From Owenia fusiformis (lineage: Eukaryota > Annelida > Polychaeta > Sabellida > Oweniidae), in the NCBI GenBank assembly GCA_903813345.2, contig CAIIXF020000006.1:6562989-6626988 (forward strand): 64,000 nt of DNA. Direction: 5' to 3'. The notes beneath the pieces are model-generated. The model was given only the letters and a program-made list of their open reading frames with translations, was not told the origin of the DNA and searched no databases. The position numbers and the translations under genes are program-made. Below, piece after piece: positions 5,205 through 61,500 of the stretch (position 1 is its first letter; every line of letters begins with the position of its first letter).

Positions 5205-5900
5205 TAATATAGCTACAAATGTAAGCTTATCTTAAGATAAGATCTGTTTTTTTACAACTGACAATTTACCCTGCAGTATATATGAACATACTGAATATGT
5301 TTATATGTAAAATGGATTAAGGCAGGAATTAGACAACATATAAAAATGTTAAGTTCTCTTATTTCATAATGCTTCATAATCTGAAAATCTCAATTTCTAT
5401 GTTAATTTTCGATTTTTATCACTTATTAAGATGTTGGGGCTGCTGGAAAACAACTGTTTCACGGTTGCCTTGGAAATGCAACCATTTTAAGGGTAGCTTT
5501 GGTACAAGCTGGCCATATCATCACTGTTTTGGTTGTTGGTGGTTAGTCAACACATAAGATACACCCCTTCTACAGATTATGAGTAATAATGACAATAAAC
5601 GGACATGACCATGATTTCAAGGAAACATCATTTATGTCATTACATTTAAAGTAAATTGAAATAGATTGAAATATTGAATGTTAAATGAATTAATAATTGT
5701 GATATTTAAATAGATTAAAAACAAGCAAATCATTTGACTTATACTGTTATTTGGGATTTATATATAATATGTTTTGAAGGGTTTATTAACATTCATCCTG
5801 CGAAAACAATACAAGCTTGTTACATTGTCAAGTGACAAACTCCAATGGAAAATACATGTATTCAAAAAACAGTTCTCCTGGAGTTCAAAGTTACCATCAA
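5205..5900 (+). pseudogene. Orphan last exon of the Trp/Cys-rich family with flanks
   Basis: Positions 5431-5557 match exon 4 of the array genes, closest to the gene at 26.4-29.2 kb. An acceptor (ttattaag) is followed by an open frame starting CWGCWKTTVS and ending HCFGCWW plus a short tail and TAA. Compared with its relative, the middle is 6 nt shorter and lacks one Cys of the CNHWC motif. Part of the preceding intron ('tttttttacaactgaca' near 5249) and about 350 bp of 3' flank, including 'accatgatttcaagga', are also copied. No matching exons 1-3 are visible upstream, so this looks like a partial duplicate without a promoter. It lies beyond the 3' end of GNL1, outside the intron that holds the rest of the family. 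Confidence 0.75.
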
Positions 5901-13500: not shown

Positions 13501-16500
13501 GTTCCAAAGGATCTTTTCTTGAGTGGGTGGAAAATTCTCTTTTTAACAATTGTGCTAAGTTGAAAATAATATGTCTACTTTCCATGACTAGGTATTATTA
13601 TTCAAGTGCCTCTACATCACATGACACATGACATGGGATGATGTACAGGTTGATGTAGGGAAGAATACAGCTTTTCCACGGAGTGTAGATGCATTGTCTC
13701 AATAGATTTGCCATTCCTTTGGAAGACTGAATGGATATTTCACAAGAACTGAAGAGTTCCAAATATCAAGACCTCATTGATGAAGCAAGATGCCAATGGT
13801 GTAAGGCCAGACACAGACAGACACAGACCCAGTAGAGATAGACTTGAAAGGATTCCCAGGCTCTTCTCTACGCACCATGTTCAATGACCCCGGGTCAATG
13901 ACCTAGGTCTATGGGCAGAGAAGGCAATAGAAGAGATACTAGATGCATGGATGAATCATGCTCGAGATGTATGTAGCTACAAAAGAATGACAACCAAAGT
14001 GGGCATCATACCAAGAAGGTTAAAGCTAGTAGTCATCTCAATTTAAAATTGGAAACTGATCAGTTTTACTGGGAACACCTTCCATTTAAATCAGGTATAC
14101 ATGTCATTCTTAGAACCCCAAAACTTGAGGGCAAACTACTGATGATGCACAAACAACATGTAGGGCTAAGAAAGGAAGAGCAAATTAAGAATGTCGAGCC
14201 TGGCCAAACAAGGGACACAGGTTCTGGTAAAATGGGATAATGCCAACAGCAAGGTAGAGCAAATACCATTGAACATAAAGAAATCATTATTCACAATGGA
14301 TGAAATATCAAAAGATAATTTGTCATTGGTTTTGAAAATTTATGCCTACTATACCAAATTTTTCAAAATGGCTACCGTAAAATCTTTAAAAACATGGACT
14401 TTAAACCAAATCACATGATAAATAACCTTTTGCATTAAAAACCTATCAATATAACAATTTTATAAGTTGTAACAATATAATTCTTTAAAACAAATAGTGG
14501 ATTATTGCATTAAAAGAGAGTTATCATCCACAAAGCTGGTTACGATATAGGACCTTTTCAGGTATTGTTTAAAAGTTTTACAATGGTTTAATATTTCCAA
14601 TAAAAATTCCTTTGTTAAACATCTTAGTTACTGCTGCAATCCTTAAAATTAAAAACATCAACATCAAAACTTCAAAACCTTCAAAACCAATTGTGTTACA
14701 TGAAGTCTAATTTCACAAGAATAAATAAGCAAAGCAGACTACTCAGATTCTGAAATGTTTGGTGATCAATGAATTTAAAATAAAGTTGAAATCATTGGAC
14801 TAATAGCAATAACAACTTCATACACTTCTTGAAAGGTTTAATTTGTTTAATGCTAAAATATCACTCTCAGATAATACTGTTATTTTGATAAAATCTTTCT
14901 CTGCATAATGTACATATGAAGAATCCTCATTTTATATTTTTGTATAATAGTGTTGTGTTCCAGCCAGATGTTATTTTCATGTTTGATCACTCTACTGCAC
15001 TCTACACCAGATTTAAAACTAAAGACCATCATTCAACTTTATTTGCAGGTAATGCCTTATTAATATAAAAATGTCATTGTTGGAAAAATAATGCCCAATC
15101 CTTCACGTACGTTTTCCTAGACCAAGGCTCTTTCACTTGTTTTCATTCTGAGCTGTAATAGCAGCAAAGCTCGATGTGACAGATGACACGTACATTATGT
15201 GAGGATTCCTCATCCTCATCAAATCTGATTGGATGTTCAAAGTTACGGTCACCCTCACCAGAAATAGGGAAGTAAAATTTCTTTGTCTCATGTAGTATAA
15301 AATGGGCAAACATGACGTGTTCTACCAGCACTCGATTTGCCTTTGAGCTTTTAAAACATACAAGCTGTGAGTACTTTAGTCATCCACAATGGTGACACTA
15401 AAGATTCTATTAGGTGAGTCTACATTTAGTAGTTGCATATCATACATTGCATAGTTTACACATTTATGCTGTCTCATACTTCTTCATCCAAATATGTATG
15501 CACAAGTGCCAAAGGGAAAGGACCAAAAATTGTTACAGAACACAGCAAGAAAAAGAAAAAAACATATTCTGTATACCAGTCATGGCAGTGTTGCGACAGC
15601 CAATCAGATTGTGAGTTCTTAATCGGGAAAATGTAACTGCTTATCGCAGGGGGTAAAAAGACAGAATATATTCTGGATTTTGAAGCCCTGTGATTGGAGG
15701 ATGGTCATAAGATTGCATATTCATATTCCATATTCAAGTGAGATATTAAACTCAAAGTGCTTCCTTCCATTCTTAATGTTTTCTCAGTTTAGCCTAATAA
15801 GGTCAGAGGCGTAGCTAGCCCATTTTGCGAGTGTACGCCCGTATGATTTCCCGGTTTTATCAAAATTAACAAAACGATGGTTCCATAGAATAGGAAGATC
15901 CCGGGTGTTCAGAAGATAGGGGACACACTAAACACTCTTAATTCAATGAAGGAAATATGTATTGTTTGATCATTTTGACATAGCTTTTAAAGGGATTGAA
16001 TTAACTGTATTAACAGATAATATTCGGGAAACAAAATAGACAGATTCTATATAATCATGCCATCGGCGATCGAAGCCGTCTATCAAGGCGATTTTATTTT
16101 TTAGGCTACCTAAAACTGTATGTATGAGGCTCATTGTTTTAAGCTTTTGTGGTCATTCTCCATGAACTATTATTATTTTTTCTGTGTTTGTTTTTATCTA
16201 GCTCACAAGATGATTAACAATAAAAGAACAGTTACATGACCGTCTCAACTCCATTTCGGATCTTAACAATCTGTACGTGATTCTATAGAATAAATTCTAT
16301 CTTTCTGTTTTTTGCATTTGGGAACATGTCAATTACAGTATCAACAGAGCTGTCAAGTGTCCCGCGAATGGCGGGATTATCCCGCGAATTTGATCAAAAT
16401 TTGGCTAATTCGCGTGTCCCGCAATGTCCCGCGAAGTCCCGCAAATGTCGGCTTTGACCTCCGCGAATTTTCAAAATTGTAACAATCCCCGAGGTTAAAT

Positions 16501-19500: not shown

Positions 19501-22500
19501 GCACTGAGATTTTAATATTGAACTCTTATCTCAAAATGCTATAGTTTCAGTATTCATGACAATATTTCTATTCATTTACTTGTCAAGATGCTATCTTTGC
19601 TGGTTAACATTTCCCAATCCACTGCTACCTTGGAGATGCAGCTGGTGGTGCTTCTATGGTAGCTTTGGTACACCATGGCCATATTGGCACTGCTGGAACT
19701 GTTGGTGGTCACCAGTTGGCAAATAAGATGCACCCCTTCTACAGATTACAAGTACTGATGACAGCAAATGGACAAAGACCATGATTTTAGGGAAACCTTA
19801 TTACATTGAAGTAAACTGAAATATAGTGGAACATTAAATTGAATCAAACTGATAATAGTTAAATAAATTCAAAACTTAAATGTAGCAAATCATATGACTT
19901 GTACTGTTATTTTGGATTCATATATGTTTCAAATGATTTAACAACAATATCACTCCTAAGAAAGGCATTTGCTACACGTAGCTTTCATGATGCAGCATTT
20001 CAAACCATCATTTGCATTAATCTGAGCACTGGTGATCTCATCTTTGAATGTTAAGAAACAAAAGTCATTTACAGTTGCCTCATTTTCAAAAGCAAAAACA
20101 AAACATTAAAGTCCCCCATAAATCGGGCTACGTATACCGCCGTGTTTACATTAGGGGATTAGAAGAGTTTATTTTTTATTTAGGTATGCAAGCTACGTAT
20201 ATCAATATTAGGCCTTCATTCATGTACTCGTGTGCATGTAATCAGCATGCCCTTCAATATTATGTAAACCAGGCTATTCAAGTACTGTATAATGTACACT
20301 ATTTATGTGTGTACTACATACAATACAATTCCCTGGGAAACAAAACACAAATACTTTTTATATGTTCAAAATGAGCCATTTGATTGATGCAAACACTAAA
20401 TAGCTTCATAAATAACATCTATAAAGTATATCTAATAGTAATTTTCAATTTCAATGGTGAAACTTCCCTGGTTACGATTATATGGGAAATCATCACGAGA
20501 TGAAGATCGTTCGCCTTCCTGGCTTACCTCTGAATCGTGTACCCGGTAATCTCTTTATATAGTTTAGCGAGAGCGGTGCGCCTGCGCAGTTTTAAACTTT
20601 GGCGCACACTTTAAGATTGAAACGGACCCAAAATATATTTTGATATTTTGATAATCAATTAGAAAATCAAATGTAAAAAATGACCTCTGAGTAGCTTGCA
20701 AGTAATATTGGTGGAATGCCCATCCTAACTGGTTATTCTGGCATTGTTGGAGATGCCCGTTAATAAGATCAAAACAATGAACAGCGATGATGCCAACAAC
20801 CATAGATAAAATGGAAAAAGACCATGATTTTAAGAAAACCTCATTACATTTAAAGCAAACTGAAATAGATTTTCATGAACTGTATGTTTAATAGAGTACC
20901 TAGAATAAACTCCTGTGGAACAACAATCAATCAAAGTGTCTTTATTCTCATTGTACAGTTAATAATGTTCTACCATTGAAATAAAGTGTCTTTAATTTAA
21001 CCGATCAAAATGAGATACGGGACAACGGACACTGTATTACCACATGCCGTTGTCTTTGTAAATCATTTCACATTCATATTCCGTTGTCATTGACGATATC
21101 AAAGATGTTATATTATAGTGATTCGCTACCCAATTTGATCGAAATTGGGATTTCATATGATACATCATCGCAAGAGCTTAATACATGCACAGAATTAGCG
21201 ACGATAAAATCCCATGAAATGAGGACCAAGTGATTAAAGAGTTGAAGCGACGGTTATTTCCGCCATTTGTGACAACTGTTTCTGACTTTACCATTGTTAG
21301 GCTATTCTGGTGTGCAAATCAAAATGATTGTTACATTTAGATAAATTCAAAAACTGAATGTAGCAAGAGTGCTACAGCTCAACTGCTTTGTTGATTTGGG
21401 ATTCATGAACAATTGCTACAGATGATTTATTTATATTATTGCCAAATAAGGTTATATAAGGCTTTGAGCCATCATTGATACAAACTGCACAGAGACTGGT
21501 GATATCCAAAATATGAATGTTCTTAACTGGACCATGAACAAAACATACTTCACACAAACAATAATATGAAACTTATCCTCTGTAGCATAATTTTGAATTG
21601 AATTGATTTGGCCTTCAAGCTATTGATGTTTACAAATACATGTAAAACCTTTAAAATGGCTGTCAGATGTAACATTCAGCAATTCAGCTCCCACAGAGGG
21701 ATATGAAGTGTGGGTTTTCATCTGTCACACCCAATATCTATTTCATTATACACAAATGAATATTAATATCCGCATATGTGAGCATAGTGTGTGAGTGCAG
21801 ATATCAATATTCAGAAGTCAATGAAAATGGTATCATAAATAAAAAAAATCAAAGGATGTTCAATTTATTGCATAGTTTTAAATGGGAAATACATTTTATA
21901 CATCAAATTAGAAGAACCCTACAAACACTTTAAAAACTATAAAATAGCAAATCCCACCAAACAAAATACAGGGTAACACCAAATAATGCATCCAATCAGT
22001 AAAAAATGTCCATGCCTCAGATTCAATTCAATTTTCTAAGTGTCTTATCATTGTCATTTTATGGTCAATGACCACTCCTATGAGATGAATATCATATGAT
22101 ACATGTTAAACAATACCTGTTAAACAGAGGTCAAGGTCATTCTAAGGTAAAATGTCAATTTGGTATTTGGCTTTTTAAGACCCTTGGTCTTTACTGTGAC
22201 CCTTAATGGCCCATGATTAGGTGATAAGGTGATTGAGGTCAAATTTATGGGTCAAAGTAATTCCAAGGTCAAAGGTCAATATCTTCAGGCATTTTCAGGA
22301 CCTTGAGGTCTGTTCAGAAGGAGTGAGTAGCTCCCATAATTCTTTCATATTCTATCGTATTCGGGGATTCCCCATTACATCAACTCTTGCATCTGATCTC
22401 CAATCAAATTGCAGGATTCGATCACGTGAACAATCATGAGCACGTGCTCTCTCAGTGCTGCGCATGCGCAAAGTTAAATTTGATCCATACTTGTAGAGAA

Positions 22501-28500: not shown

Positions 28501-31500
28501 TAAAATATATATCAGTCTATGTATTTTCTTGATTATGTAAATACCTCTGATATGAGCCCAAAATCTCTGTAAATGGAACATCTCAGAAATAGAATGCTTT
28601 TAGCAGATCCAAGGCTGTTTCACTGAATGTACACAATGTCTATCCTGTACATCAAATCATTTCAGCTGTCTCTGCATTTGTTACCTTCTGGCACTGGCGC
28701 TGTTGGGCCTGCTGGGGTGGATGGTGGCCAAATCACAAGAGGTAACCAAATATTTATAATGCTAAATTTCTTTAAAAATACTTATAAGTTCTGAGCTAAT
28801 ATAAGGTCTAGTTTTTTTACAACTGACATTTTAGTCTATCACTACTTCAAAATGGTAATTTAGTAGCCAAATTGTTATACAAAAGTGTATTCTATTTATT
28901 AGTAGTCACATATAAAATTTCAACAAAATTACATTTTGAAATGATGGAACTAATAAATATAAACTTTTCATTCCATCAAATGAAGTTTGGAGGGAATTAT
29001 GGTCAGCTTTTATGTTAATCTGTCTCACTGTCTTATTAAGATGCTGGGGCTGCTGGAGAACAACTGTTTCATGGCTGCCTTGGAGATGCAACCATTGGTG
29101 CTTTTATGGTAGCTTTGGTACAAGCTGGCCATTTTATCACTGTTTTGGTTGTTGGTGGTCAATCGGCAAATAAGATGCACCCCTTCTACAGATTATGAGT
29201 AATGACGACAACAAATGGACGAAGACCATGATTTCAAGAAAACATCATTCATGTCATTACATTTAAAGTAAATTGAAACAGATTGAAATATTGAATGTAA
29301 TGAAATAATTACTGCTAAATTCAAATAAATTTAAAACTTCAAGAATCAAATTGTTTGACTTATACTGATATTTGAGATTTATATTTATTCTGAATGGTTT
29401 ATTATACTGCTTGTGCAAGAGACAAACTTAAGAGAAAATACAAATTTATTCAAAGTGACAATTCCCCTAAGAAAGTTGTCATTATCTATTGCCAAGTTAT
29501 ATGTTAAGTGAATGATAATTCTCCCCCTAAAACTTGATGTGCAAATGTGCAATCCGAAAACTCATTTGATTTTTCAACTTCTTAAATGGTACACTCAGAG
29601 GAGGAGATTTCCCAACGTTCGAAGCCGCCATCAAGGTCACACGTCGTGTCAATGATCGAGCTTTTTGGAATCAACACGCTGGTTTTCTTTCATTCCTCCA
29701 ATATAACATTTTTGATAGTGGGAAAACACATATGAATATATCAAATTAGAAAAACCCTAGAAACACTTTGAAAATTAGAAAATAGCAAATTCCACCATAC
29801 AAAATACAGGGTAACACCAAATGATGTATCCCATAATTTCAAAATTGTCCAACCCAAAGATTCTCATCAAACAAATTCAAAAGTTTAAAACATTTTCAGA
29901 GTTAAAACTGAATGTGAAACTCATTTTAAAACAAATGGTGGATTATTGCGTGAGATCAAATTCAAAAAGAAAGTTATCATTTGCAAAACTGGTATCGATA
30001 TACATGTACATGTAGGACCTTTTCACATTTTACAATGGTATGATGTAAATTACTTTTTTAATCTTAGTTATTGCTGTGACCCTTAAAATAAATCAAAATC
30101 ATAAATCTGCAAAAATCTTCATATATAAAGTCAAATTTCACAAGAATAAATATGCAAAGCAGATTGATCAGATTCTGAAATGACCTCATGATCAATTCAT
30201 TCAATATGGTCAAAAACATTGGACTTAGCAATGACAACTGCATACGCTTCATGAAAGGTTTAAATTGTTTTATTCCATTCATGCCAAAGTGTCCCTCACA
30301 GATAATGCTGTTATTTTGTAATGGTTATTTCTCAGCAAAATGTATCAAGAGTAATATCTGCCTCTTGAATTACTCCATAATGAAGTGTTGTTCATGCCAG
30401 ATGATATTGTTCCTTGATAGATCACCCTGTTGGACTCTACTTGAGACAGAAACTAATTTATTTACAGGTAATACCTCATTGATAAAATATAATTGCATTA
30501 AAGTAATGCTCTTCCTTAACATAAAACTCCTAGTTCAAGGCTCTTTCACTTGTTTTCAATATGAGCTGTTGCTGCAAAGCCTGATGTGACAGATGACACA
30601 TACACAATTTGATAATCCTCATTTTCATCAATTTTGATTGGATGTTCAAAATTACTGTCATCCTCAACAGAAATGAGGAAGTAAAATTTCTTTGTTCTGT
30701 GGAGTATAAAATGGCCAACATGATGTGTTCTACCAGCACTCGATTTGCCTCTGAGCTTTTGAGTGTTACAACATACAAGCTGTGGGTACTTTAGCTATTC
30801 ACAATGATGACACTAAGGATTCTTTTAGGTAAGTCTACAGTTCGTATTGTACATTAATTGGTTTCATAAAACATAGGAAAGAAAAATAATTCTATTACAC
30901 GTAGGTATATAATGCGCTCATTAAAAAAGTAAATCACCAATTCTAAAACCATTGTTCCATTGCTCTAAAGTTTAAGCAGTTGTTAATATGAGTTTGTGAT
31001 GTAATACAGGTAAACTCTGCTATGCCTAGTGCAATTTTGTAAAAATTATGAAATAATTTATATTTTTTTCTGTGAGGTTTGAAAAGTACTGTAGGTATAG
31101 TGATCAATATAGTATAGTGATTCGTTTTCATAGAGTGTAAATGTAATTAGTTTATTTCAAAATATTTTCAAAATGATCAACAGAAATCATGAAATCATTG
31201 TGTGAGTTACAATTCAAAATTCATGGCCCTGGTCCTGGATTGTGATATTGGTTTTTGATTGGAGAGTGGAAGGGTGGTGTTAGACATTGTTTATTTTTCT
31301 TATGATAGGTTTATACTTACAGTTTGCTTTTCTTGCTAGGTTTCTTTACAGTTTTTGGTCCTTTCCCATTGGCATTTATGCTTAGATATTTGAGAAAACT
31401 GAAAATCTAGGAAGTTGAAACACACACTTATGAGCAAGGATTTGCTTCTGAGCATTGTTAATAGGAACTGCCAGTAAATAAATAAATTTATGCTTAGATA

Positions 31501-34500
31501 TTTGAGAAAACAGAAAATCTAGGAAGTTGAAACACACACTTATGAGCAAGGATTTGCTTCTGAGCATTGTTAATAGGAACTGCCAGTAAACCGCTATCAA
31601 AATCGATTCGCTTATAGACATCGATGTTTAGTATGAATTTCACCCAAACTTCGCACATATATAGATATACTCATGATCTAGTCAAATCGGCATACCTGGT
31701 TAATATCCGACCCATGGTTTTCATAAAAGAAACTACAATATTTTTAGCTCAAAACTGCCACGTGTCCGCCATTTCGTGATTCCATCATGCCTAATATCAT
31801 TTCTATATGACGTCACACCAATAAGACGAAATACGTGACAACAGTATCCATAAACAAAATTCCTGAATTCTGATCGCAAAAGGTCAATTCAAGTTAAAGA
31901 GTTGGGATGCCTCTATTTTGAATGTTTCATGGTGTCGAACTTATTGACTTTTAGCCATTTATAAGGGGAACAGACAAATATGCTTTGTAGTGTGTAAATT
32001 ATAGAACTTAGTACCTGTTAATTAATTTTATGGAAACATTGGTAATAAATGAATAAATTATGATAATAAGTATGACACTGAAATGAAACGAAAATATGTT
32101 TGTACTTTATTGCAAAAATGTTATTCGTAAAAATCAAGAGCTCCATCACTCACCTTTCTTTCTTAACATCAATTTAAATGTATATTATCTTGCACTTACA
32201 AACAAATTGTGATTTGGCTTTGCCGCAGAAAAACCACAGAATTTGGAATTTCCAAATTTTTGCAGAATTTGATTTTTTGCATGGAATTTTGTGGAACTTG
32301 ATTTTTTCAGTCAACTATCTCATCTCATATTTGTCACTCACCTTAAGACGGTCATTTGAAATCAGAAACTGGTGGTTTGAGGATTTCCAAGGTGAAATGT
32401 TAAATCTTATAAAAATGTACATTACATAACAATAAGATAGTTCAGTATGATAATTAGAAAACGTTCACTATGTAATCTTCATATTACATTGCAAAAATAG
32501 AACTGCTTGGTAAAACTGCAAAACCTGGGAAGTTGAAACACACAGTACTACTTCTCAACATCAATGACAATTTAATGTTTTCTTGAAGTCTTTTCACTGT
32601 ATTCTGGCAACTAAACTCTCACGTTTGACACTTCAAACAACTGGTATTTGGGATACTTGGCATTTCTTTCCTTATATCTAGTTGGATTTTTAGTATGAGT
32701 TGTACTTTTAGTTTGACTGAGATACAAGGGATGTGCCAGAAGTAATGCAGTGCACTATGTCATTATGTTTCAGGTCTTCTCGTTCTTTGTGTGATAACAC
32801 AGCAAGGACTGTTGAAAGCTGAGCCTGCTAAAGAAGTAGAAATTGACAGAGAGATAAGGGGCAAACCATGTTGTCAATGTCCTCCTGATGATAATCCCAA
32901 AAAAATGTCTGAGGCAAGGGTAAAGGCATCATCATCTGCATCCGCAGTTGAAAGAACAGCAAGTAAGATTAAGAGATTTGAATAAGTAACATCTCATTTA
33001 AAAAAATTCAGTATTTGAACAAGGATGTCTATCATATATAGATAGATGTCCTTGATTTGAAGTTACATTGCTTACTTATATAGTGCTGTTTTTACTTCTA
33101 AAATGTTATCATCTCCAGACTTACAACTTATGTGCACATAAAATACTTCAGGCTCAGTTAGTGCACAAAGTCGTTACATCTGGCGCTGCTATTGGTGTTA
33201 TTCTGGATATTGGCCCTATCACAGAAGGGAAGTATCAACTATTTATTAATTTTTGGTGCAGTATGTTTTTTTGTATTTTGAATTAATTTCGAAATTCTAA
33301 TTTGTCAGAGATTAGTTTTTGAGTACATGGATGCTTACTGGATATTCTTTAAAACAATTGCATATATGACTGATTTTATGTCTGGCAAGATAAACTCTAC
33401 TGAAATTATGATACAATTAATTGAAATATATGAAATCCATATTTTGTTAGAATTGGCACAGTATTCAAATATTTGAAACTAGAAGTAAGCAACTCCATAA
33501 AAATAGCAATTCCCAACGAACACTACAGTATACTCATGAATCTGTATAAACCAGAACAACGGCAACGCCAAAGCGTAGCGAATCCCATCAAACAGAAATG
33601 GCTGGCATTTTTACAAACGAAATATAGCAAATATCATAAAATAGCACACATAAGAAAGGCCACCATTTTCAAAATGGTTGCTCACTAGCCAAGTTGTCAT
33701 CAGAAGTAATATGCTTTTTTTCTAGCATTCACAACCAAATATGAACAAAATCGCTTCACTACTTTTCGAGTTATAGTAAAATACTTTAAAATGGTGGCCA
33801 TTTTTCAAAATGGCCGCCTTCTACCAAAAGTGTCATTAGACAGTGTGCCATGCTTATAGTATTCACATACCAAATATGAACAAAATCGCTCCACTACTTT
33901 TCAAGTTACAGCAAAAATTGTAAAATAACAAGTAAAGGCCGAGTAAAATACGTTTAAATGGCGGCCATTTTTCAAAATGGTCACCTTCTACCAAAAGTGT
34001 CATTAGACAGTGTACCATGCTTATAATATTCACATACCAAATATGAACAAAATCGCTCCACCACTTTTCAAGTTATAGTAAAATACGTTAAAATGGCAGC
34101 CATTTTTCAAAATGGCCGCCTTCTACCAAAAGTGTTATTAGACAGTGTGCCATGCTTATAGTATTCACAAACCAAATATGAACAAAATCGCTCCACTACT
34201 TTTTGAGTTATAGTAAAATATGTTAAAATGGCAGCCATTTTTCAAAATGGTGGCCATTTTTCAAAATGGCCGCCTCCTACCAAAAGTTTCATTAGACAGT
34301 GAGCCATGCTTATAGTATTCACACACCAAATATGAACAAAATCGCTCCACTACTTCTTGCGTTACAGCAAAAATCGTAAAATAACGAGTAAAGGCCGCCA
34401 TTTTTCAAGATGGCTGCCATGTGCTTCTTTAATATCTACATTTCTAGCTTTATCAATGTCCTATATAATTTTTTTACATTTAAAACATATTGCTATTACA

Positions 34501-37500
34501 GTTTTACATATTGCACCTAAATTACAGTAAAATCGGCACTAAAATGGCCGCCATTTTTGAATGAGCGGCCATTTTGAAAATCGGCTTTCGAGCAGAACTT
34601 CTACCCCCATAGGGTATATGTGTACAAAATATGAACAAAATCGGGCTAACGGTATTTGAATTATTGCCCGGACGGACGGACAGACGGACGGACGGACGGA
34701 CGGACGGACGGACGTACAGACGTACGTACGGACGGACGGACGGACGGACGGACGGAGGCGTTCCCTATATCCCTCCAAACTTCGTTCGATGGGATAATTA
34801 TGCATGTCACAATGTAATATTTACCATCTACTCTACCCTTGATTAAATTATTGGCAGATATTATAGTCATACATTAGAGATATATCAGAATTTCCAATTT
34901 AAGCTTTTGGGTGAACACTGAGGAGTTTCAAAGGCACAAATCATAAAGACAATACTTCGTTCGTTGGGATAATTAAAAGTCAGACTTTTTTCAGAAAACT
35001 CTGAGCCATAGCTTTAAATCACAGCAAATAATATGTAAGTAATGAAAACTGTTGACTTTGCTATTTTAGGTGTTATTTCTGCTACAAGACCACATATCGC
35101 TATCCAACCTATCCATGGCTGCATTGGACATGCAGTTGGTGGTGTTGGTGGAATTCTGTTACAGGAGGCTGGCCATGGTGGCATTGTTGGAACTGCTGGT
35201 GGCATTAATATTTTTGAGGATCAGAGGATGATGATGACGACAAATGGACAAATACCATGATTTAAGGAATCTTCATTACATTTAAAGTAAATTGAAATAG
35301 ATTGAAATATTGAATGTAATGAAATCAAAATGATTGTTACATTAGAATAAATTCAAAACTAAAATGTAGCAAATTATATCACTTGTACTGTTATTTGGGA
35401 ATTACATATATTTTGATTTGAATGGTTTATTAACATCCAAATTGCAAAATAAACTACATGGACTGTGTCTTGTCAAACTTGCTCCGGTCTGGAGCCCTGT
35501 TTGCCTGTCATCCCCAAGCCCCCATCATTCTTCCTATATAATGCCCTCTGGCCATTGAGGGATGCTATTGTGGAACTGTAATTTAAAGCGAGCGTATCAA
35601 TGAAATAAGTAAATATATAATCCAAAATCAATTAAAGATTGGTGGAGCTAGACAGTTCAGTTTAACAAATACATAAATCTTTTCAGAGGTCCTTTAAGTA
35701 GGCCACACTAGGGAATGACAATTACAGAAGAAAATGTCTCATATGAATGCCACTTGGATTGGTCAAAAATGTTCAGATTTGTATGTGCTCACATTTTAAG
35801 TTTTTTTTACATAGAAGCCTACATGTATGACCAATTAAAAATGGGACCGGAAAAAGAAATTGTTTTCACACTTTAGCATTTATGGTTTCTATTTATCAAG
35901 TCTGTTAATGGAGTGAACTGATTTTGCCTGATTCAAGGTATACACCTGTAATGGAGTATGAGATTTGGAGATTGAACCTTTCTAATCATGGAACATTAAT
36001 ATGTTTGAAAGATGAAGATATTTTTCAAAAAGCTCTGTTACATTTTTTTCAAATGACATACTCAGTTATAGTTTTCATGAACTGGCAGTTTTATAATCAC
36101 AATCCTGAAAAGTCATAGATGTTAAACAATTTACGACAAAAATACATATTCTCAATAGCATGTATAAATTACTGTTTCAATCTTCAAATTCTCAGTCATA
36201 AATGTTTGGTCAGATGCTGAAACCTCCGAAAATTCAAAGTATTGTTGAAAGGTTATCTACATGTCTAACTGTTTGTTCAAATACAGCTTTCCAATGGTGT
36301 CATTGTAATAACTTGAATGAACTATCCATGAACAGCATATCATTACATTATACTTTGAAATAAAAAAAGATGAGCATTTGCTGTGAAAAAATACAATGGG
36401 GATACAAGGGATGATATGTGTACAAATTATATAGAAATTACAAGGATAGCATTAAAGGAACCATGAACAAAAGGATCACTAGAAGAGATATAGATAGCAA
36501 GTTGCTACTACAGTCTCATTTGTATTGGCTAGCGTGCCCTCAGGAAGGGACATAAATTGACCTTACTGACATTTCAATAATGTATCACTGGTGTGGTGTG
36601 AATCGAATAGCTAACCCCTCAACAGCTACATGTAGTAGAGGACTCCCCAAGGGGTAAGTGATAAGGCGACCTGGCCTCTAAAAATGGGACTAAATGGGAC
36701 TTTGGGGTACTTAAAAACGAACAAATGTGACAAATCAATCCTTGCAAGTGACAATTTTGCACATTTATCGGACTGACAAGTGTTTTGAGAGTGACAAAAA
36801 TAGATAATTTGTTCTGAATATAAATTGATGCTAGTTAAGATGACTTATTCTAACCAGCAATCAAACAATGGAACATAACAGACTATTTAGTGCATTAAAT
36901 ACTTTGACTGTCTAAAAAGGAATGAATCTGACAAAATATGACAAGTAAATTTTAAAACAGATCTATTGTGTCCCTAGGCATTTTCATATAAAATTTGAGC
37001 CAAATCCGTTCACTGGTATTTGAGTTATCAAAGATTACGTTTTTTTACGAAAAATGGCTGCCATTTTGAAATTCAGTGGCCATTTCGAAAATCCCATCTT
37101 GAGCGAAGCTCCTTTGTCTCTAGGCATCATCATATAAAATTTGAACCAAATCCGTTCACTGGTATTTGAGTTACCAGAGATTACGTTTTTTACGAAAAAA
37201 TGGCCGCCATTTTGAAATTCAGCGGCCATCTTGAAAATTGTAACTCGAACAGATCTACTGTGTCCCTTGGCATCATCGTATACAATTTGAACCAAATCTG
37301 TTCACTGGTATTTGAGTTATCAAAGATTAAGTTTTTTTACGAAAAATGGCCGCCATTTTGAAATCTAGCCGCCATCTTTAAAATTTTTACTCCAACATAT
37401 CTACTGTGTCTCTAGGCATCAGCATATAAAATTTGAACCAAATCCGCAAACTAGTATTTGAGTTATTAAAGATTACATTTTTTACGAAAAATGGCGGCCA

Positions 37501-40500: not shown

Positions 40501-43500
40501 AATGATTCCTCCAATTGATAATTTTGTGCAAAAAATTTCACTGCAATTTCCACAGGAAAGTAGTACATCATAACAGACTGACTTCTAGTCAGTCTGTTGG
40601 ATACATACTAGGGGGAGGGGGGGGGGTCAGAGTCAAAACTAGATTTATTTAGTTTCCGATCCGCATCGAACTTTTGATGTCTCCCTTAACATGATGAGCT
40701 ACATGTATAAACGTTATACCCAATGCACATTAGAAAGAACTATGCTCAGTAATATTTTGGTATATTAAGGTGGAGAAATAAATTTTCTACATACTGTTGT
40801 TCAACATTTAAGTAATATTCCACTTTTTGATTGTCATGAATACCAATAACGCAAATGCGAGTAGGTAGTTACCAGTTTCACCACCAGGTAGCTTGCTCGG
40901 GTCAGATAGCATGGCGGGTATAGTAGAAAGTTCCCTTTAACTTAAATTACATCTGTTTTAGTGGTTCAATTTTCATATAGCCCTTATGTATCGAATAGTG
41001 TTTAGGTCTCTCAATATTGCAATTGTATAAAGGAAATTTTGGTTGATTTTAAAAATGTATCTTGTTTATGAAATAAAAGGTTTATCTTGATTTTTATCTA
41101 ATTTGGGGGGATTTTGTTTTTTGAATTTTTTGAATACTTTTTTAAAATCAACCAAAAATTCCTTTGTATAACTATAATATTGAGAGGTCTAAAAACATGT
41201 TGTATATGCTATTTTGTTCCAACAAGGTTCGGAAAGACACTTTATTTCATTCTCAAGAATTGGTAGAAAGGAACAAAAACAATTGCACTAATAAAAAAAA
41301 TGTTAACAAAAACAGTAATATGAAATATTTCTAAATAATTTTTCTAATTAAATTGTTGTCAATCAGCCAACATTACATAAAATACCATGTTTTTTACAAA
41401 ATGTTTTCAATGATTGGTTTAAGAGAACAACATTGTTGAATTCAGTTCTCCATATCGATACCACTCCTTTTAACAATAAGGTAAAAAACATTGGACTTAT
41501 CAATGACAACTGCATGTACTTCGATGAAAGGATTAATTTGTTTAATTTCATTCATGCTAAAGTGTCACTCTCAAATAATGCTGCTATTTTGTTTGGATAT
41601 TTCTCAGTAAAGTGTACAAATAAAGTTCTTTGTTTCTTGAATTTTTGCATCATGAAATGATGTTCAGGTCAGATGATATTATTTCTCTATATATCACCCT
41701 ATTGCATTCTACTTCATATTCAAACGGATGACCATGATTCAACTTCATTTACAGGTAATGCCTGATACAATATCATAATTGCAAAAATGAAGCCCCATTC
41801 TTCACGTAGAACTCCTAGTTCTAGTTGTTTCAGTATGAGCTGTAATAGCTGCAAAGCCCGATGTGACAGTTGACACATACGCATATTGACGATTCCTCAT
41901 CCTAATCAATTCTGATTGGATGTTCAAAATTACGGTCATCCTCACCAGAAATGAGGAAGTAAAATTTCTTTGTCCCATGGGGTATAAATGGGCAAACACG
42001 ATGTGTTCCAACAGCATGTGCCACTGAGCTTTTGAGTGTTACAACATACAAGCTGTAGGTATTTAGCAATGATGACACTTAGGATTCTTTTAGGTAAGTC
42101 TACAGTGATTACTTGCATATTGAACATTTACCATATTTGTTTCATAAAATATGGGAAAGAAGAATAATTCTATTCAATCTTGGTATATCATATGTTCATC
42201 TAAAATCAAATTTTAAATTCTCACAAAATAACCAATTAAGTTTCAATCCAAATATATTGGTTTTCGATTTCAGTCACTTACATTCTCTGAGATTTATCTT
42301 AAAGATAGAATCAGATCTAGCAAGCAGCCTAATAAAAAAAAATTAGAATATTTCTGGCTTATGTCATTCCTTTTGATGTCTATTTTCTAAAAATCTTCTA
42401 AGTGCACACTTTATTTCAGGAAAACTAATGATTTTTACAATACTGTATTATTTTTCTATTAGAATGGTTACCATTCTTATTATTTTGGAGAATTTAAACA
42501 TTTTTTACCCATTTTTGCACTTTGAATCCATCATAACTTCACCAATTTATAACATATCGTGAATCTTTTGGGGGATATTGTATTTGCGATTGTAAGGAAG
42601 TGTTACTTGTAATTCTGTCATCCCCATATATCTGATTCTGCCTTTAATATCGCTTATTTATTTTCAACTAGTATAGATTGATTCTACATTTATAAAGGAA
42701 GGTGCATCTCATTCTCAACTGGTTATTTTTATTGATATACATGTTGATGTTTTCATGTTCAAACATCATCACTGTGTGTCATAAACATAGTAGATGAGTG
42801 AACAGGTGAAATCTCAAATCTCAAGTCAGATTTGAGCTTTATGATTTTGAAAAAAATAATTGGTCAATTTGAAGCAAGTTGAAAAAATACCTTATTGACT
42901 TTTTTTGACCTTAAGAAGGTCATTGAGGTCACATCTTTTTTGACTTTGAGAAGGTCATATCTCAAATCTATAGTAAGATTTGACTTTTGAGAACTTGTAG
43001 ATGATTTTGAATAAAAGAATTTGGTCAATTGAAGCTAGTTGAAAAAATACCTTTTTGACCTCTTTTGACCTTGAGAATGTCATAGAAGGTGAAATCTCAA
43101 ATCGAAAATCATATATGAACTTCCGAGAAAAATACCTTTTATGACCTTTTTGGGCAGTATGGCAATATAGTGAAATATTGGACCAAGGGCCAAAGGTCTA
43201 AGATAATTCACACATCATTATTTTCTGCACAAGAAAAATGCAAATTCTGCGCTGAAATTCTGCATGAAAAAGTCGAATTCTGCGCCAAATTTTGCATGAA
43301 ATCCCAAATTCCGCGATAAATTCTGCAAGCAACCGCTTCATCTAAACTATCACGATATTACAAGGAATCCAAAGTTCGAGATATATTAAACGCAATCTTT
43401 TAGTCCAATGGAGGAAGTTTGAGATTTCACATTTCCCCTTTTAAAGCCTCATAACACCAGTTTCTGATGATAAATGACTAACAGACTAAGGTGTCTAAGG

Positions 43501-46500
43501 TCTTAGGTGTCAAGGTGATTGACAAATATGAGATGAGATGAGGTGGTTGATTGGAAAAATCAAGTTTTCTGCAAAATTCTGTGTGAAAAATTCAAATTCT
43601 GAAAAGATTTTGAAACCAAAATTATCTGTGGTTATAAGTATTACCACCGTTTATGGCCAAGGCGGACAATAGAAAGAACTAATAAGTACCACTGAACAGA
43701 AATTATATGCACAATATCTCATTTACCAGGGAATATTACCAGGCTAAAATATCCATTTGGCCTGACAATCTGGCCCGCCACTATGATGCCACATATTGCT
43801 CAGGACAAAATAGTAAATTTAAGCTTTCTAAACTAGTGCTAATAAACTTAAGAACAGGCCCAGTAAGGTGGTAATAATATCTTACTGACTTAATCTTTAC
43901 AAAATGAGTAAAACTAAGATTATTTCTACTCATATTGAATATTTCTGTTTGGTGAAATTCTTATTATTTGAATTGTGTTTGAAGGAAATATTTTTCATTG
44001 TTATGCAAGGAATTTTCTTGAGGTTGTTTTCTCAACAATGATAACTAAAATCTCACATTTGACCCTTATAACAGGTACTGCTGGGATGTAGTGGAGTACC
44101 AGTAGTATACAGTGTATATTTAATAAATATTCCTTAAAACTTATTACAGTTATGATATTATCATTGCCTGTTTTAGGTATTGTTGTTCTTTTTGTGATAA
44201 CATAGCAAGGACTGCTAAAAGCTGAGACTAAAGATGTGGAAATTGACAGAGAGATGCGGGCGGCTCGACCAGCTATACCCGACAGTGCGATAAAAATAAA
44301 GTCAAAAATAGGTAGAATTCAAGCTCAAGCAAAAGGTAAAATTCATCTTAGAGGTTAATTAATTTCTTCTTAATATGTCAGCAATTTTATTTGTTGAATG
44401 ACTCCATGGCATTGTGTTAATATTTGATAGAATGCAATCATCTGCAGACGAACCATCTGCATGTGCATGTACTTTTTCAGCCCTACCTTCAGCACGTTCA
44501 TTTAAGCTCTACTTACGCTGGCGCTGTTATTATTGTTGGAATTTTGGCTTTCTAATCGGCACCAAGATGTAAGAAAATATTCAAGAATAAAAAATTTCCT
44601 TTTATATTAAATTTTTTCATGGGAATAACAAGTATATCTGTTTCACTTAATTTGTTAGCATATCCAAATATTTATTCCATAGTTAGCATGATATTCATAG
44701 GATAACATGTGAAAATAAAAACGGTATTTTTGTAATCAGTGGTAAAATATGATATTTTTGACAAATTTTCACTTAACCATAACATACGGTTTTTTAGCCA
44801 TGACATACGACGTCGTATGCGATGGTTTATGGATTTTTGCTACTTCAGACTCAAAACGAGGCTAAGTGTCAACATCGCCGGATCGTTTGGAAATTCGAAT
44901 TAAATAACTTAATTTCCGACGATTCTGATGATGACTTTAACTTTGGAATAAAAAGAACATCCTCTATATATTCTATATTTCGGGACCAAGGAACCCTAAA
45001 TGTTATATAAAAAATATGCACTATCATGGTTGGGATTTTGAAACCTGTGGCCTTTTGAACATCAGCTTTGAGCAAATACTTCTATACCTCTCCATGGGCT
45101 TTCAACTAGTTGAACGCCCATGACTATTAGAGATCAGAATTACACTATTTGAATTTCAGTTATAAGTTTGGGCATAAGATAGATGAATGAATGTCTGGAT
45201 ACCTGGATCTTGTTTTGAAGCTCTTCCTGGGTGGTTCACTTAGTTTTTGTGCGATTTTCTTCTTATGTTTTCCTCATATTTTCTGTTGAGTCTTGTTATT
45301 TTTTTGGTGTCAGACTAGCACTCCTGAATATTCCATGAACTCCATTTAATGATAAATAAAGCAAAAAATATTACATTTTATGGCTAATCTGACCCTTATA
45401 CACATGATGAGGTAAAGTGGAATAAGAGAAAACTTCTTAGAGTTTAAAAAGTTATCTTATTTGAGGAATTATATACTGGCAAAAATGGTTTCATGCTGTA
45501 TAGCAAGTGCAATAATTGAACTGTGTTCAGCTTTAGGACATATATTTCATGATATCATACTTTTGCAAAATAGATTTTAAGTCAGTTAATATTTTTTGCA
45601 TTGTATCAAGTAATGACAATTTAAACATATTTTTGTTGCTTTATGATCAACAAAACATGCAAAAATGTCAGTGAAAAGTCAGTGACCAATGCTTTTTGCT
45701 GTTCTAAAATCACTAAAATTTTGAACTTTCCAATGAGCAAAAATAGAAAAAATCTGTTGTTCAGTTTATGTTGAGTTTTAGTACACCCTGTTAATAGTTA
45801 ATACCTCCAATTCTAACATGTTTCCCAGCTTTTATTAAAAACAAAGTCAGTGATACAAACTTTTTAATTGGAAAAATAACACACTTGAATTAAAACAAAT
45901 ATATACACTACATGATTGAATTCCCCACTCTAAATAACTACCTAATAATGCTTTATAGTTTGAGTGATCTTGATCTATTTTTTGTCTTTTGTCAAGATGC
46001 TGGCCCTGCTGGTATACATTACCCTATCCAGCATATCCATGGCTACGTTGGACATGCAATTGGTGGTGCATGTATGGTAACTTTGGTTCACCCTGGCCAT
46101 ACTGGCACTGCTATGGTTGCTCATGGACGATCGGGAAATAAGATGCACGCCTTCAACAGATTATGAGTATCGATGATGACAAATGGACAAAGACCATGAT
46201 TTCAAGGAAATCTCATTCATGTCATTACATTTAAAGTAGATTGCAATAGATTGAAATATTGAATGTAATGAGATCAAAATGATTGTTACATTTGAATAAA
46301 TTCAAAACTTGTATGTAGCAAATCATATTACTTGTACTGTTATTTTGAATATATGTTATGAATGGTTTATATTTTATCCATTTATCCTGCTAAATTGACA
46401 CAAGGTTACATTGGAAAGTGACAAACTTCAATGGAAAATATATGTATTAAAAGTGAGTTCCCAGGCCTGTATCCAGAATTTTCCAAGGGGGGTTCACTTT

Positions 46501-49500
46501 TCCCAAAAATTCTAGGGGGGAGGGTTCACTTTGGCAAATTTGGCTAAAAATCACTCAAAAAATAGTCAGAATGGTGAAAAAATGCATGATTTTGAAAGAA
46601 ATTTTGGCCAGAGGGGTTCGCCCAAAACCCCCAAACCCCCCTGGCTACGGGCCTGGTTCCCCTAGGGAAATTGTTATAATTCAATATTCATGTCATGTCA
46701 CCTATTAACTAAATCATACTTTTACCTTAAAACTTGATGTGCAAAATGTTACCAAAAACTGATCTGATTTTTTACAATGGTGTTCTGGTTTGTCGTAAAT
46801 TATAGTAGTAAAAAATTATATCCTTTCTATCACTTTCAAAGAGTATTGGGACTCAATACCTTCTCTAGCTGATATTATCATGCAGCGTTAAAACCCATCA
46901 GTTACATTACCCTAAGCACTCCAGATCATAAGTTACTGATGTAAATTTTTGAGATTTAGTTCTCAAATGTACCTTTTCTAGCCATCTTAAAATGTGTGGA
47001 TGTTATGAAATAATAGTCTTTGTAACAGTTGTAGCCTCATATTGAATAGCAGACAACTAGACATCAAGATTGCAAGAAAACCAAAAAGGGACTCATAAGA
47101 TATTTTGATCTTTTGAAGATCAATGAAAGATCTATGACCTGTTTCCATTTTTCAACATACTACCCCCCCCCCCCAGGATATCAGCAGCCCTCCTATCTTT
47201 TGTTTCATTGCAAGGCATTCTACCATTTACAGGTGACATCCAGGTTAAAATGAATATTGTACTTTGTTGTTTATTTATATAAGGGGACATCTAATGCTTA
47301 CAGCGCTTTGCCCCTTGTAATTGTATCTTAATGATTTGTGCTTACAATAAATATGAAAGATGATAAAAAAAAATGAAAGATCAATTATAAAAACAAATGT
47401 AATTAAAGTATGAATTCCTTATAACTTGTATCAGTAGAATGCCCATCCTAGCTGCCATTCTTGGAAATGCTGTTCTCGGCTTGTGATGTTTAAACATAAG
47501 AAAATGAACACCTAAAATACCTACAAAGGTGATATTGAGGGCAGACAGTGAATCAGATATGTTAGTATAATAATACAGTTGTAGAAGTTTGGTGTCACTG
47601 TCAGAATGTCAATAATACCAGACTCACAAACTACTAGTTAATACACCAGAATCCCATCTTTCTACAAGTACTAAACTTTAACATCAGTGATGTTACCACC
47701 CAAGATTATCATCTATAGATTTACAGACCAGTTTTGATATCACAACAGAAAATGACCTACAACTAAATGTCCAATCGCTATCACATGAAAATACCATCTG
47801 CTACTCTCAAAACTTGTATGTAGCAAGTCATATTACTTGTACTGTTATTTGGAATATATGTTATGAATGGTTTCTCGGTAGCCAGTATTGATGAGCACTT
47901 TGTGAGACCCGAAAAAGGTAATATTGTTGATCAAACTTTGGTATTTATGGTATGTCTATAAATGGTCAGAATTGCAGACTGCTATGCTATTTAACCTGAT
48001 TCTGGGTATGGAGTAGAGATTTGAAAACTGAGCCTTTCTAATCATAAAGCACTCATATGTTTGAAAAATGACAATGTCGCAGATATTTTACAAATTAACG
48101 CACTGTTACATTTGCTTTCAATAACATATTCAAATAATTGTTTTTATGACCTGACAGTTTTAAAATCACAATCATGAAATGTCATATATGATGTTTAACA
48201 ATTTACAACAAAAATGCATAATCTAAAATAGCATGTATAAATTGCTGTTTCAATTTATCACCTTCCTAGATATTTCAATTCTTGAAAAAGTTAAAAGATA
48301 TTGAACAATATAACACAACTCACAATAACATCTATGAATGAAAAGTATCCAAAGCGCCAACATCCAAATTCTCAGTCATAAGTACGTATTTGATGAGATG
48401 CTGAAACCTGGGAAAATTTGTTAAGTTTTGCCAAAAGGTTTGCTTTCTACCTACATGTTTAATATAAGTGTTTGTCCAAACACAGCTTTCTAATGGTGTC
48501 ATAGTGATCATTTGCATGAACAGCATATCATGACATTATACTTTGAAATACAAAGAGTATAATATGTTTTGAGATAACATGATGAGAAACACGATACAAT
48601 GGAAGAGCATGGATCAAGAGGTCATGAAGCTCTTCAGAAAAAAATATTGATATATTACATCTTTATCATGATTATCCAGTTTTGGCAGTCATACAAACCC
48701 CAGATAACACCCTAAATGATATAGGAAAAAAATCATACCTCAATCTTACTATTCTTGCCAGATAATACTGCATGTATAAGACCATCGTAAAATTTGTTTT
48801 CGAGCTGTGGAGCGCCTCATTTCACGATTGGACCAATCAGATCATGCCATGCATATGAGACGCATGAGCTATAACCATGAAGAGAAAGTGGAATTTCACC
48901 TTCATAACCTGGTGAATATAATCAGCTTATAGTAGGACTTCCCACAACCATGGTTAAGAGGCATGGTACACTGTATGTGTATTACATGTATATAGAAATT
49001 TCAAGGATAGCATTGAAGGGAATATGTACAAAAAGATCGCTCGGAGAGATATAGGAATGAAAGATATACCAAATATTCCATTCTATTGAGGTGAATACAT
49101 GTTCATCTTTCCCTCAGTATATTTCCCGCAGCCCTAAGGTACGGTAAGTGTATTTCTTTTAACCATTTAATGCATAGATACAATACATGTGCTCATCAGA
49201 ATAACCACTCTAACTACAGCCACTCTTAGATGCAAGATATTGCCATCTTTCATCCTCAAAAGTCACACGTGCAAGATGACTTGTGACATCACTGGTTTAT
49301 AAACATCAAGAACATGGCAACGGATTCACAATTGCTATGAGTACCCATGCTCATACTACAAATATAAGCTGTGACGTCATAATAATGAAGTTTTGTTGCC
49401 GTGCGTATCCAAGTATTTTCTACAATATTGTTGTGACGTCATAACAAAAACATAACATCCGGGACTTTCTACCGTGGTATATACTCTGTGGTATATACAT

Positions 49501-58500: not shown

Positions 58501-61500
58501 AATTATTGTAGAAATAAACTATAAATGGTTGACTCAGGAGTTGCGTTAATCAGCAGTTCTTGCGAACAACAGCAAACAAGTACTTCGATTCACAAGGAAC
58601 CACTGACAAAGACAACATGAGAATTGCACAATTAGCTGGTAAGTACTTTTTAATCCATCGCATACACGCATAATAGATATACACCATGTACAGTACTTGA
58701 ATAGAGGAGTTTCTAAATAGCTTTGAAATCTCGCTAATTCTCATTTTTTCATGGGATTATAAGAGATTTGCACTTTTAACCTCTAATGACTTACTTTTCT
58801 TTATTTTTGATAGCATATTTGGTGTAATGCTAAAATTCATTAAAACCTCGGCTTATTTGTATGACAACCAACATTTTCATGTTTAATCACAATATGTACA
58901 TTGACAGGGTCATCCAATAGTATGTCATTCAAGTTTCAGACAGATTCAACCAACATTTTTTGATAAATCATGAAATTAAGTGACTATTGCAAGTTTCTAG
59001 CATTGAAGTGAATGGAGGTCTGGCCCAAGAAAATCAAAGACAAACAAGGGTGACATCTATTATGTCAGCGTTATTCAGCTATCTAGAAACTATACAATTA
59101 AGCATATATTACTTGGCTTGTATAAGGCATCCTTCCCCTGACATAACACATCAAGCCTGAAGACTCTGACCAAGGCTAAATGCACTTTCAGATATTTTGA
59201 TTTGAGGACAATTTTTTTATTTCATTTTTTCATATGAACCGATAGAGTAGGCAGTGAAAAAATGATGTGGTACAGTAATAAAATCTCCAGACTGGGTCTA
59301 GTTAAAGAAATTTTGCTTTTGATTCATTTTTACATGGTTAAAATGTTGGCTAGGCTAATCACTGGTCATAAATACCTGTATGGCCAGACAGAAAATATTA
59401 TGGCCAGAATCTTTTCAATGTCTGTGGACAAATTTGGCTAAAGTGAAAAAATCCTTATTTGCCAGACTTATATTGTTACTTTTCAGCAAGTAGTGGGAGT
59501 AGAAATTTATATCTGGGTGATTAGACCATGATTGTTAGTTTAACTTTTTAAGACCAATATATCAGCTTACAATATTTATTACAATAATTATGATCTTTTA
59601 TAGCGTTGTTTGCTTTGGTCATATTTGCTTTGGCAAAACACATTGAACCTGAAGAAGTCGAAGTAAATGACATGCAACCAGAAGATGTTGAAAAGGATGA
59701 TGAAAAAAGGGCTTCAAAAGTTGCAAGTCCTCTCATGGCAAAAGTTAGCGTAGCAACCCTGGACAGGACTCTTGGTTCAATGAAGGAGAGTACTTTGCAA
59801 AACAACTTGCAAGTTGCAGCAAATAAATTTAAAGTTGAGGAAAAGGGTGAGTGCTTTTTCAGTTGTACCAAAGAAAGGTTATCATCATCATCATTTAATT
59901 TCAGTTCTAGCAGAGACTGCAGACTGAAAATGCAATAATACAAGGGATGATCAATAAGTTTTACTTGTCTGTAGTCTGTATCATACTATTTTTCAATTGA
60001 CTTATGTGTTATCTTCAATATACTTAACAGCTATACAGGGATGTTATCATAAGCCTTTTTATCTTAGCGAGTGTTGCGAGACATACCCTTACACTTGATG
60101 CTCGTCCATTATTCTGGGTTCGTAGATGGCGCTGCTTTTACTGTTACAAAGGGTGGTACAGTTGTCATTGGAGGTTAGTTTAACATAATTCGACTATCTT
60201 TCTTTTAGAGATGCATAGTACTAGTACAAAATAACATATTTGCCGTAATTGGTGACCATGTTCTTATTAGCATCCCCCAGATTTTTGTAGGTCCGAGGGT
60301 GGGTCCCTTGGTTGAGAATCAATGATCATTAGGGTCAAACATAAAGAAAATTAAATGGTCAATTAATAGAGTACTTACTTGTTTTAGTTACTTTTTGTAG
60401 TTTTGGAAAAGGTATTTCAGCTTGGATATGTCATTCTTGTCACCATAAAATGTATATAATAATGTTGTAATGTTGAAATATATAATGTTGCTAACTCAAG
60501 TCCATTCCATTATTTTGATGTCTACCAGTGAAGAAACAAGGCTGAGAAGAAATTCAAATTTCTATAAATTAATGAATGACAAATACAAGTCTGGACAAAC
60601 CAATGGATGAACTCTATGGCAGACTCTTAATGCATGACATTCATTTCACAATATTGTAAATAAAATAAATAATGTTTATTCCCAACTAAATCTAGATGTC
60701 TATTCTGCTACTACACATATGGCTATGGCTATTATTGGATGCCATGGAACTGCAGTTACTGTTACGTAGAAGGTGTTAGCAAGTGGTATTGGTGGATGAA
60801 AACATACAATTGTTGGGGCAATTGCTACTACAGGAGATATTAGACACAATGAGAAAAGATATTTCGTAGAAACAGACAGCAAGATAATTCATATTGTTCA
60901 TGATATAATGAATGTCATTGAAATAAAGTCATGAAAACAAAGTTAGAAGTACTTATCTGCATTGATAGAGCCACACTTGCAAAAATATACTTTAACAATT
61001 GATACAGATGCCAATGCCTAAGTGGCATTCCCTAAAAGGTGGGAAAGACAATGTATGTCACCAGTTCTTACTGCACTGCTTATGAATAAAATCAGACTTG
61101 AAATCAATCAAGAATGATTCCATAATTCTAGGAGGCATCATCATTTACAATGTGTGATAAAAACTAAGGAAGTTAAGCCCAAATAAAGTTACATCAGTTA
61201 TCATTTATACAATCAGAAACCTACATTAGCAGAAAACTCACTTTTTTTTGATTACAAAAACATTCTCTTATTTTCCTCAGAGAATCCAAAAAGATTTTAC
61301 ATACTACATGTACAAGGAAATTTTTTATTGGAATCCATGTGTGTGATTTGAAATGAGGCAAAATGTGTTATATATTACAGCTGTTTGAGTGAGGCAAAAT
61401 AGGGTAGGATCAGAGTGAGGTGTTGTGCCTCAATCTAAATGCCTCATACACAAGCTAACACAAAACAAAACAAGTCATTAACATGCAAATGCTACCACCT

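Follow-up and report, generated by a model that had tools for sequence, protein, structure and literature searches.

What might be the role of a tandem gene array in the annelid Owenia fusiformis whose predicted products carry a signal-like N-terminus and end in a domain exceptionally rich in Trp and Cys? The array lies in a 64,000-nucleotide stretch of contig CAIIXF020000006.1 (assembly GCA_903813345.2, positions 6,562,989 to 6,626,988, forward strand), here called the window, to which all positions refer unless another contig is named. An earlier note, written from the letters alone, had assumed a mollusc setting; the host is an annelid of the family Oweniidae, to whose proteins four of our gene models are identical, and Owenia is a genus that we take to be early-branching among annelids and that is used in developmental genomics. 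Six copies (A to F) lie in tandem, all on the + strand, from the start of A at 15389 to the end of F at 60843, just where that note had put them, and the expansion by tandem duplication that it proposed is supported. Its picture of six equivalent working genes does not hold, as C and D look broken and four of six copies (A, B, E and F) are intact. From sequence evidence, we read the family as lineage-restricted antimicrobial-type peptide precursors, with a probability of roughly 45%.

The intact genes share a layout of four exons with introns in phases 1, 1 and 2. Gene A (P0003; 15389..19726, +) encodes 197 amino acids in exons 15389-15413, 18350-18700, 18905-18983 and 19588-19726; gene B (P0004; 26421..29173, +) encodes 137 in exons 26421-26445, 27785-27964, 28666-28741 and 29041-29173; gene E (P0002; 50288..52227, +) encodes 221 in exons 50288-50309, 50662-50919, 51130-51379 and 52092-52227; and gene F (P0001; 58617..60843, +) encodes 172 in exons 58617-58638, 59604-59846, 60068-60173 and 60696-60843. 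The exon number and phases previously attributed to all six loci were recovered in five (A, B, D, E and F) and failed in C, where exon 3 lacks a canonical GT donor. A protein-database search that scored only the 8,000 candidates sharing most words returned four hits with the four intact models at an expectation value (E) ≤ 1, all from O. fusiformis, and the spliced models equal these entries, each titled 'unnamed protein product [Owenia fusiformis]', letter for letter. The genome annotation published for Owenia was built with RNA-seq, Augustus and PASA and excluded models with in-frame stops, and RNA-seq from nine adult tissues has been released (PMC9977687). A TATA box precedes every copy on the + strand: TATAAAA at 15296..15302 in A (-93 from the ATG), and TATAWA starting at 26323 (B), 30705 (C), 41983 (D), 50198 (E) and 58520 (F). 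TATAWA thereby falls 86-99 nt upstream of the ATG in six of six copies, compared with 4.3% of window positions by chance (-80 to -105), in a count to which A-D contribute a promoter shared by descent.

Counted from its WRC motif, the C-terminal core spans 61 (A), 59 (B), 60 (E) and 64 (F) residues and contains 14, 13, 10 and 9 Trp, respectively, together with 8, 8, 9 and 9 Cys, none of them in CC pairs. The exceptional Trp and Cys content described earlier therefore holds (14-23% Trp in the intact cores), and aromatic residues (W, Y, F and H) make up 35-44% of the core, with 16 Tyr in F. Cys spacings are 2,10,2,12,3,13,2 in A and 2,10,2,11,3,13,2 in B, each giving four C-x2/3-C pairs, and 2,6,3,2,14,2,16,3 in both E and F. 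A Trp/Cys filter applied to all six frames of the window returned 7 segments, whereas 60 first-order Markov resamplings gave 0.12 on average and never more than 1; such segments are not due to chance. Six of the seven are exon-4 frames, and the last is an antisense frame of E exon 3. Across the four intact proteins, 24 alignment columns are invariant.

The core behaves as coding sequence: the proportion of non-synonymous differences (pN) was below that of synonymous differences (pS) in 15 of 15 pairs, and the ratio of the corresponding rates (dN/dS), measurable in 9 of the 15, was 0.19-0.54. One-sided Fisher tests, run on nine of the 15 pairs, gave p<0.05 in seven, the others being A-B (0.11) and A-E (borderline at 0.051); the pairs, among them those with the broken copies C and D, share sequences and hence lack independence. 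Diversifying selection is thus unsupported. Exon 3 of A and B carries the ladder W-x2-W-x2-W-x2-W, and among the six cores only those of A (shuffled fraction 0.0024) and B (0.010) had more aromatics spaced three apart than shuffled sequences. C-mannosylation was rejected as the cause of this ladder, WxxW/C counts being no higher than composition predicts in any of the six cores (shuffled fraction 0.16-0.62).

Ahead of the core lie the parts of a precursor, whose borders (pro-piece, linker, core) we drew manually. Each of the four intact proteins begins with a hydrophobic stretch that is split by intron 1 (11-residue Kyte-Doolittle mean 2.78-3.65) and that, judged from hydropathy, supports the secretion suggested in the earlier note. 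An acidic piece has a net charge of -3 in A (DDVEIDREIR), -2 in B, -1 in E and -7 in F, and at or just behind this stretch each protein has a dibasic pair: RK starting at residue 39 in A, RR at 35 in B, KR at 39 in E and KR at 42 in F, with an additional RR immediately before the core in F. The linker of A holds 32 Pro in 91 residues, with a net charge of +15 and a KPPRPPLP[IT]RGA repeat; that of B is short, and E has a Gly-rich segment at the beginning of exon 3. With core charges of +5 (A), +6 (B), +3 (E) and +6 (F), the combination of a putatively secreted precursor, an acidic pro-part and a cationic core is found in four of four within the hand-set borders. Gly-Lys closes the proteins of A (-VGK) and B (-IGK), two of the four intact, and also exon 4 of the broken copy D (-IGK). 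This anatomy leans towards processed cationic peptides without settling what they do.

The family seems confined to a single lineage and apparently undescribed, as the earlier note had supposed, since searches of Pfam, PDB and protein, viral and prokaryotic collections gave no credible relative. The protein-database and core region searches returned only the four Owenia proteins, the latter with one candidate for F and two for B, all from the family itself; core region searches require shared five-residue words and may miss distant relatives. A Pfam scan at E ≤ 10 of the four whole proteins and exon 4 of C and D, whose filters may drop weak matches, gave a single match, that of E to DUF6437, which was sub-threshold (E 0.038; 14.3 bits where the cut-off is 27). 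In PDB, F came closest to a capsid protein (E 0.042) and the profile reached 8.8 at best; neither is credible, and none of 223 viral and 92 prokaryotic pattern matches was confirmed. No paper on these peptides was among the matches listed in the open-licence literature. AlphaFold models of B and F (mean predicted local distance difference test 50.2 and 52.0; predicted template modelling score 0.30) place helices in the N-terminal half of the protein and give the core short strands; they were too weak to be used for the fold.

The array and its surroundings also record repeated loss, which the earlier note overlooked along with the copies beyond the window. Copy C (30804..35208, +; exons 30804-30828, 32774-32962, 33152-33227 and 35070-35208) retains all four exons, and read-through of the defective exon 3 donor reaches a stop inside the intron; it is probably a pseudogene. 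Copy D (42069..46141, +; exons 42069-42093, 44177-44335, 44481-44568 and 45997-46141; phases 1, 1 and 2) is interrupted by an in-frame stop where exon 2 encodes the signal stretch, and is likewise a probable pseudogene. Neither is represented by an annotated protein among the four database matches. Three relics accompany them on the + strand. R0 (5431..5759) is a lone exon 4 (5431-5557, open) with its 3' untranslated region (3'UTR); over 342 columns it has 85% identity to B, its exon 4 encodes 5 Cys where that of B encodes 6, and no match to exons 1-3 was found upstream of it in the window or in the preceding 20 kb. R1 (20709..21366) comprises decayed exon-4 and 3'UTR pieces behind gene A, and R2 (47807..47852) is a 3'UTR scrap behind copy D. 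The flanks, at 20 kb either side of the window, gave short weak matches only.

Searching the whole genome (498 Mb) with exons 4 and 3 uncovered two further copies, both broken. F' (contig C6, which also carries the window, near 6312700-6314900, -) is an inverted copy of F, 95-100% identical and about 310 kb from it, in which a deletion fuses exons 2 and 3 out of frame; its sequence suggests a recent segmental duplication. G (contig C4, 6973456-6975251, +) is a dispersed copy with a TATA box and exons 1-4, interrupted by an in-frame TGA in exon 4. A place on contig C7 (E 9.8) was inspected and judged to be chance; among pattern places on contigs C1, C5 and C10, two had no Trp/Cys-rich segment under our filter and one had such a segment that was also judged to be chance. 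The family thus comprises at least four intact genes (A, B, E and F), four broken copies (C, D, F' and G) and three relics (R0-R2), a lower bound because the genome searches scored best candidates only. Common ancestry of the A-D and E/F subfamilies is supported by G, whose exon 3 has the extra Cys of the E/F type and whose exon 4 is of the A-D type, and by the layout, phases and TATA position that both share. A profile comparison of A+B with E+F points the same way (probability 95.6, E 1.3e-8, 47 columns), although composition bias makes this figure generous.

We place a host-defence role first because the precursor layout, the apparent restriction to a single lineage and the birth-and-death pattern of copies come together in this family. 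According to one review, antimicrobial peptides (AMPs) are mostly taxon-specific, in annelids especially, and those of metazoans generally mature from a precursor that carries a signal peptide and a proregion (PMC6780910). In the mechanism that we propose, the signal peptide would direct the protein into the secretory pathway, and a pro-part made of acidic spacer and linker would be cut at the dibasic pair, perhaps with additional cleavage at other basic sites. The domain released in this way, about 60 residues long, would be cationic, rich in aromatic residues and disulfide-bonded, in A and B with an amidated C-terminus, and its Cys pairs may hold a compact, perhaps beta-rich fold. Trp and Tyr together with Arg and Lys would then bind microbial envelopes, most likely in antimicrobial host defence, and the Pro/Arg-rich linker of A and the Gly-rich linker of E may be extra modules comparable to those of crustacean hyastatins.

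Known peptide classes resemble parts of this design. Hyastatins and penaeidins combine a Pro-rich or Gly-rich region with a C-terminal Cys-rich domain whose six-Cys array is C-x2-3-C-x9-10-CC-x5-CC (PMC4954822). Two of the four Owenia proteins follow this plan, with a signal peptide, a Pro-rich (A) or Gly-rich (E) region and a C-terminal Cys-rich domain, but none of the four has the array: their cores have no CC pairs among their 8-9 Cys, Trp makes up 14-23% of the residues, and B and F have neither linker. The annelid BRICHOS AMPs (arenicin, nicomicin and capitellacin) are likewise polychaete peptides, with a secreted precursor that has a pro-region and, at its C-terminus, a peptide containing Cys; theirs is a short hairpin, however, whereas the Owenia domain has about 60 residues and 8-9 Cys, and no BRICHOS match was found in Pfam at E ≤ 10. 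Annelid macins (theromacin and neuromacin) are also cationic, Cys-rich and secreted, but neither Macin nor defensin profiles matched in Pfam at that threshold, no credible PDB relative was found by sequence, and the Owenia cores are, we presume, far richer in Trp. The exon 3 ladder of A and B recalls what we take to be the tryptophan ladder of thrombospondin type-1 repeats, yet TSP_1 gave no match in Pfam. By sequence, then, the peptides belong to none of the penaeidin/hyastatin, BRICHOS, Macin or TSP_1 families. Indolicidin-type AMPs share the high Trp content with Arg and Lys, but are short and often without disulfides, unlike a Cys-rich domain. A more specific and more tentative proposal, which we hold to be rather less probable than a host-defence role as such, is that the family is a new multi-domain defence class of oweniid origin, in which a Trp/Cys core with aromatics spaced three apart, a spacing enriched in A and B only, gained Pro/Arg- or Gly-rich modules independently in different exons and so converged on the hyastatin plan.

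Several observations weigh against antimicrobial precursors. The acidic piece of E carries a charge of merely -1, core charge is modest throughout (+3 to +6), and B and F have no Pro- or Gly-rich linker. A furin-type R-x-[KR]-R site occurs in none of the four intact proteins, a dibasic pair stands directly ahead of the core in F only, and simple dibasic cutting would split the cores of A, B and F, which contain such pairs themselves; E and F also lack the Gly-Lys end. No AMP model in Pfam matched, and strongly Trp-rich AMPs (>25%) are, in one review, generally 5-11 residues long (PMC6017362), unlike the Owenia domain. Being secreted, Cys-rich, tandem and orphan and having a TATA box fits other roles equally.

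The strongest competitor, unlikely though still to be taken seriously, is that these are structural or adhesive matrix proteins of tube, mucus or cuticle, in which Cys and aromatics cross-link and Pro- or Gly-rich spacers are flexible or fibrous. The Pro-rich module of A, the Gly-rich module of E and the Tyr-rich core of F would suit such a material, the odd number of Cys (9) in the E and F cores would leave one free for an intermolecular bond, and the in-core dibasic pairs of A, B and F fit cut peptides badly. Polychaete tubes apparently all contain protein, and the tube lining of Owenia collaris consists of layered threads (PMC4375521). With their small size, acidic piece and dibasic pair, and in some the Gly-Lys end, the precursors nevertheless resemble processed peptides; B and F have no repetitive segment by eye, and no such protein was named among the matches listed in literature searches on Owenia tubes. 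Metallothioneins are Cys-rich with few or no aromatics, and this bears on an improbable second alternative, that the C-x2/3-C pairs, four each in A and B, chelate zinc or copper in secreted metal-binding proteins: an aromatic share of 35-44% is unlike metallothioneins, the oxidising secretory route favours disulfides, and no metal-site model matched in Pfam. Least probable are signalling peptides, amidated products of prohormone convertases that would serve as a hormone, a pheromone or a settlement cue; the dibasic pairs in all four proteins and the Gly-Lys ends of A and B would speak for them, but the cores are large and very Trp-rich, the expansion left many broken copies, and the protein-database and core region searches found no relative beyond Owenia.

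Elsewhere in the window, mariner-type transposase pieces lie at 560-1882 (-), with matches to Transposase_1 (E 1.1e-5, above cut-off) and HTH_48 of Mos1 (E 0.0011, below cut-off), and a second, weak DDE transposase-like fragment lies between E and F at 57308-57703 (-; DDE_3 E 0.022, below cut-off). An open frame at 11671-11940 (-) with the GTPase-like motif NKIDLAPPALV and a sub-threshold NOG1 match (E 0.094) may be one exon of a gene for a nucleolar GTPase, and an acidic open frame at 7573-7854 (-; sub-threshold FAM176 match, E 0.031) may likewise be exonic, from a different gene. A stretch of about 700 bases at ~22590-23980 seems, by eye, to be duplicated in tandem.

If the array does encode antimicrobial-type precursors, Owenia would hold unusual aromatic-dense disulfide peptides that are candidates for antibiotic testing, and the family would offer an example of secreted peptides arising, gaining modules and decaying within one lineage.

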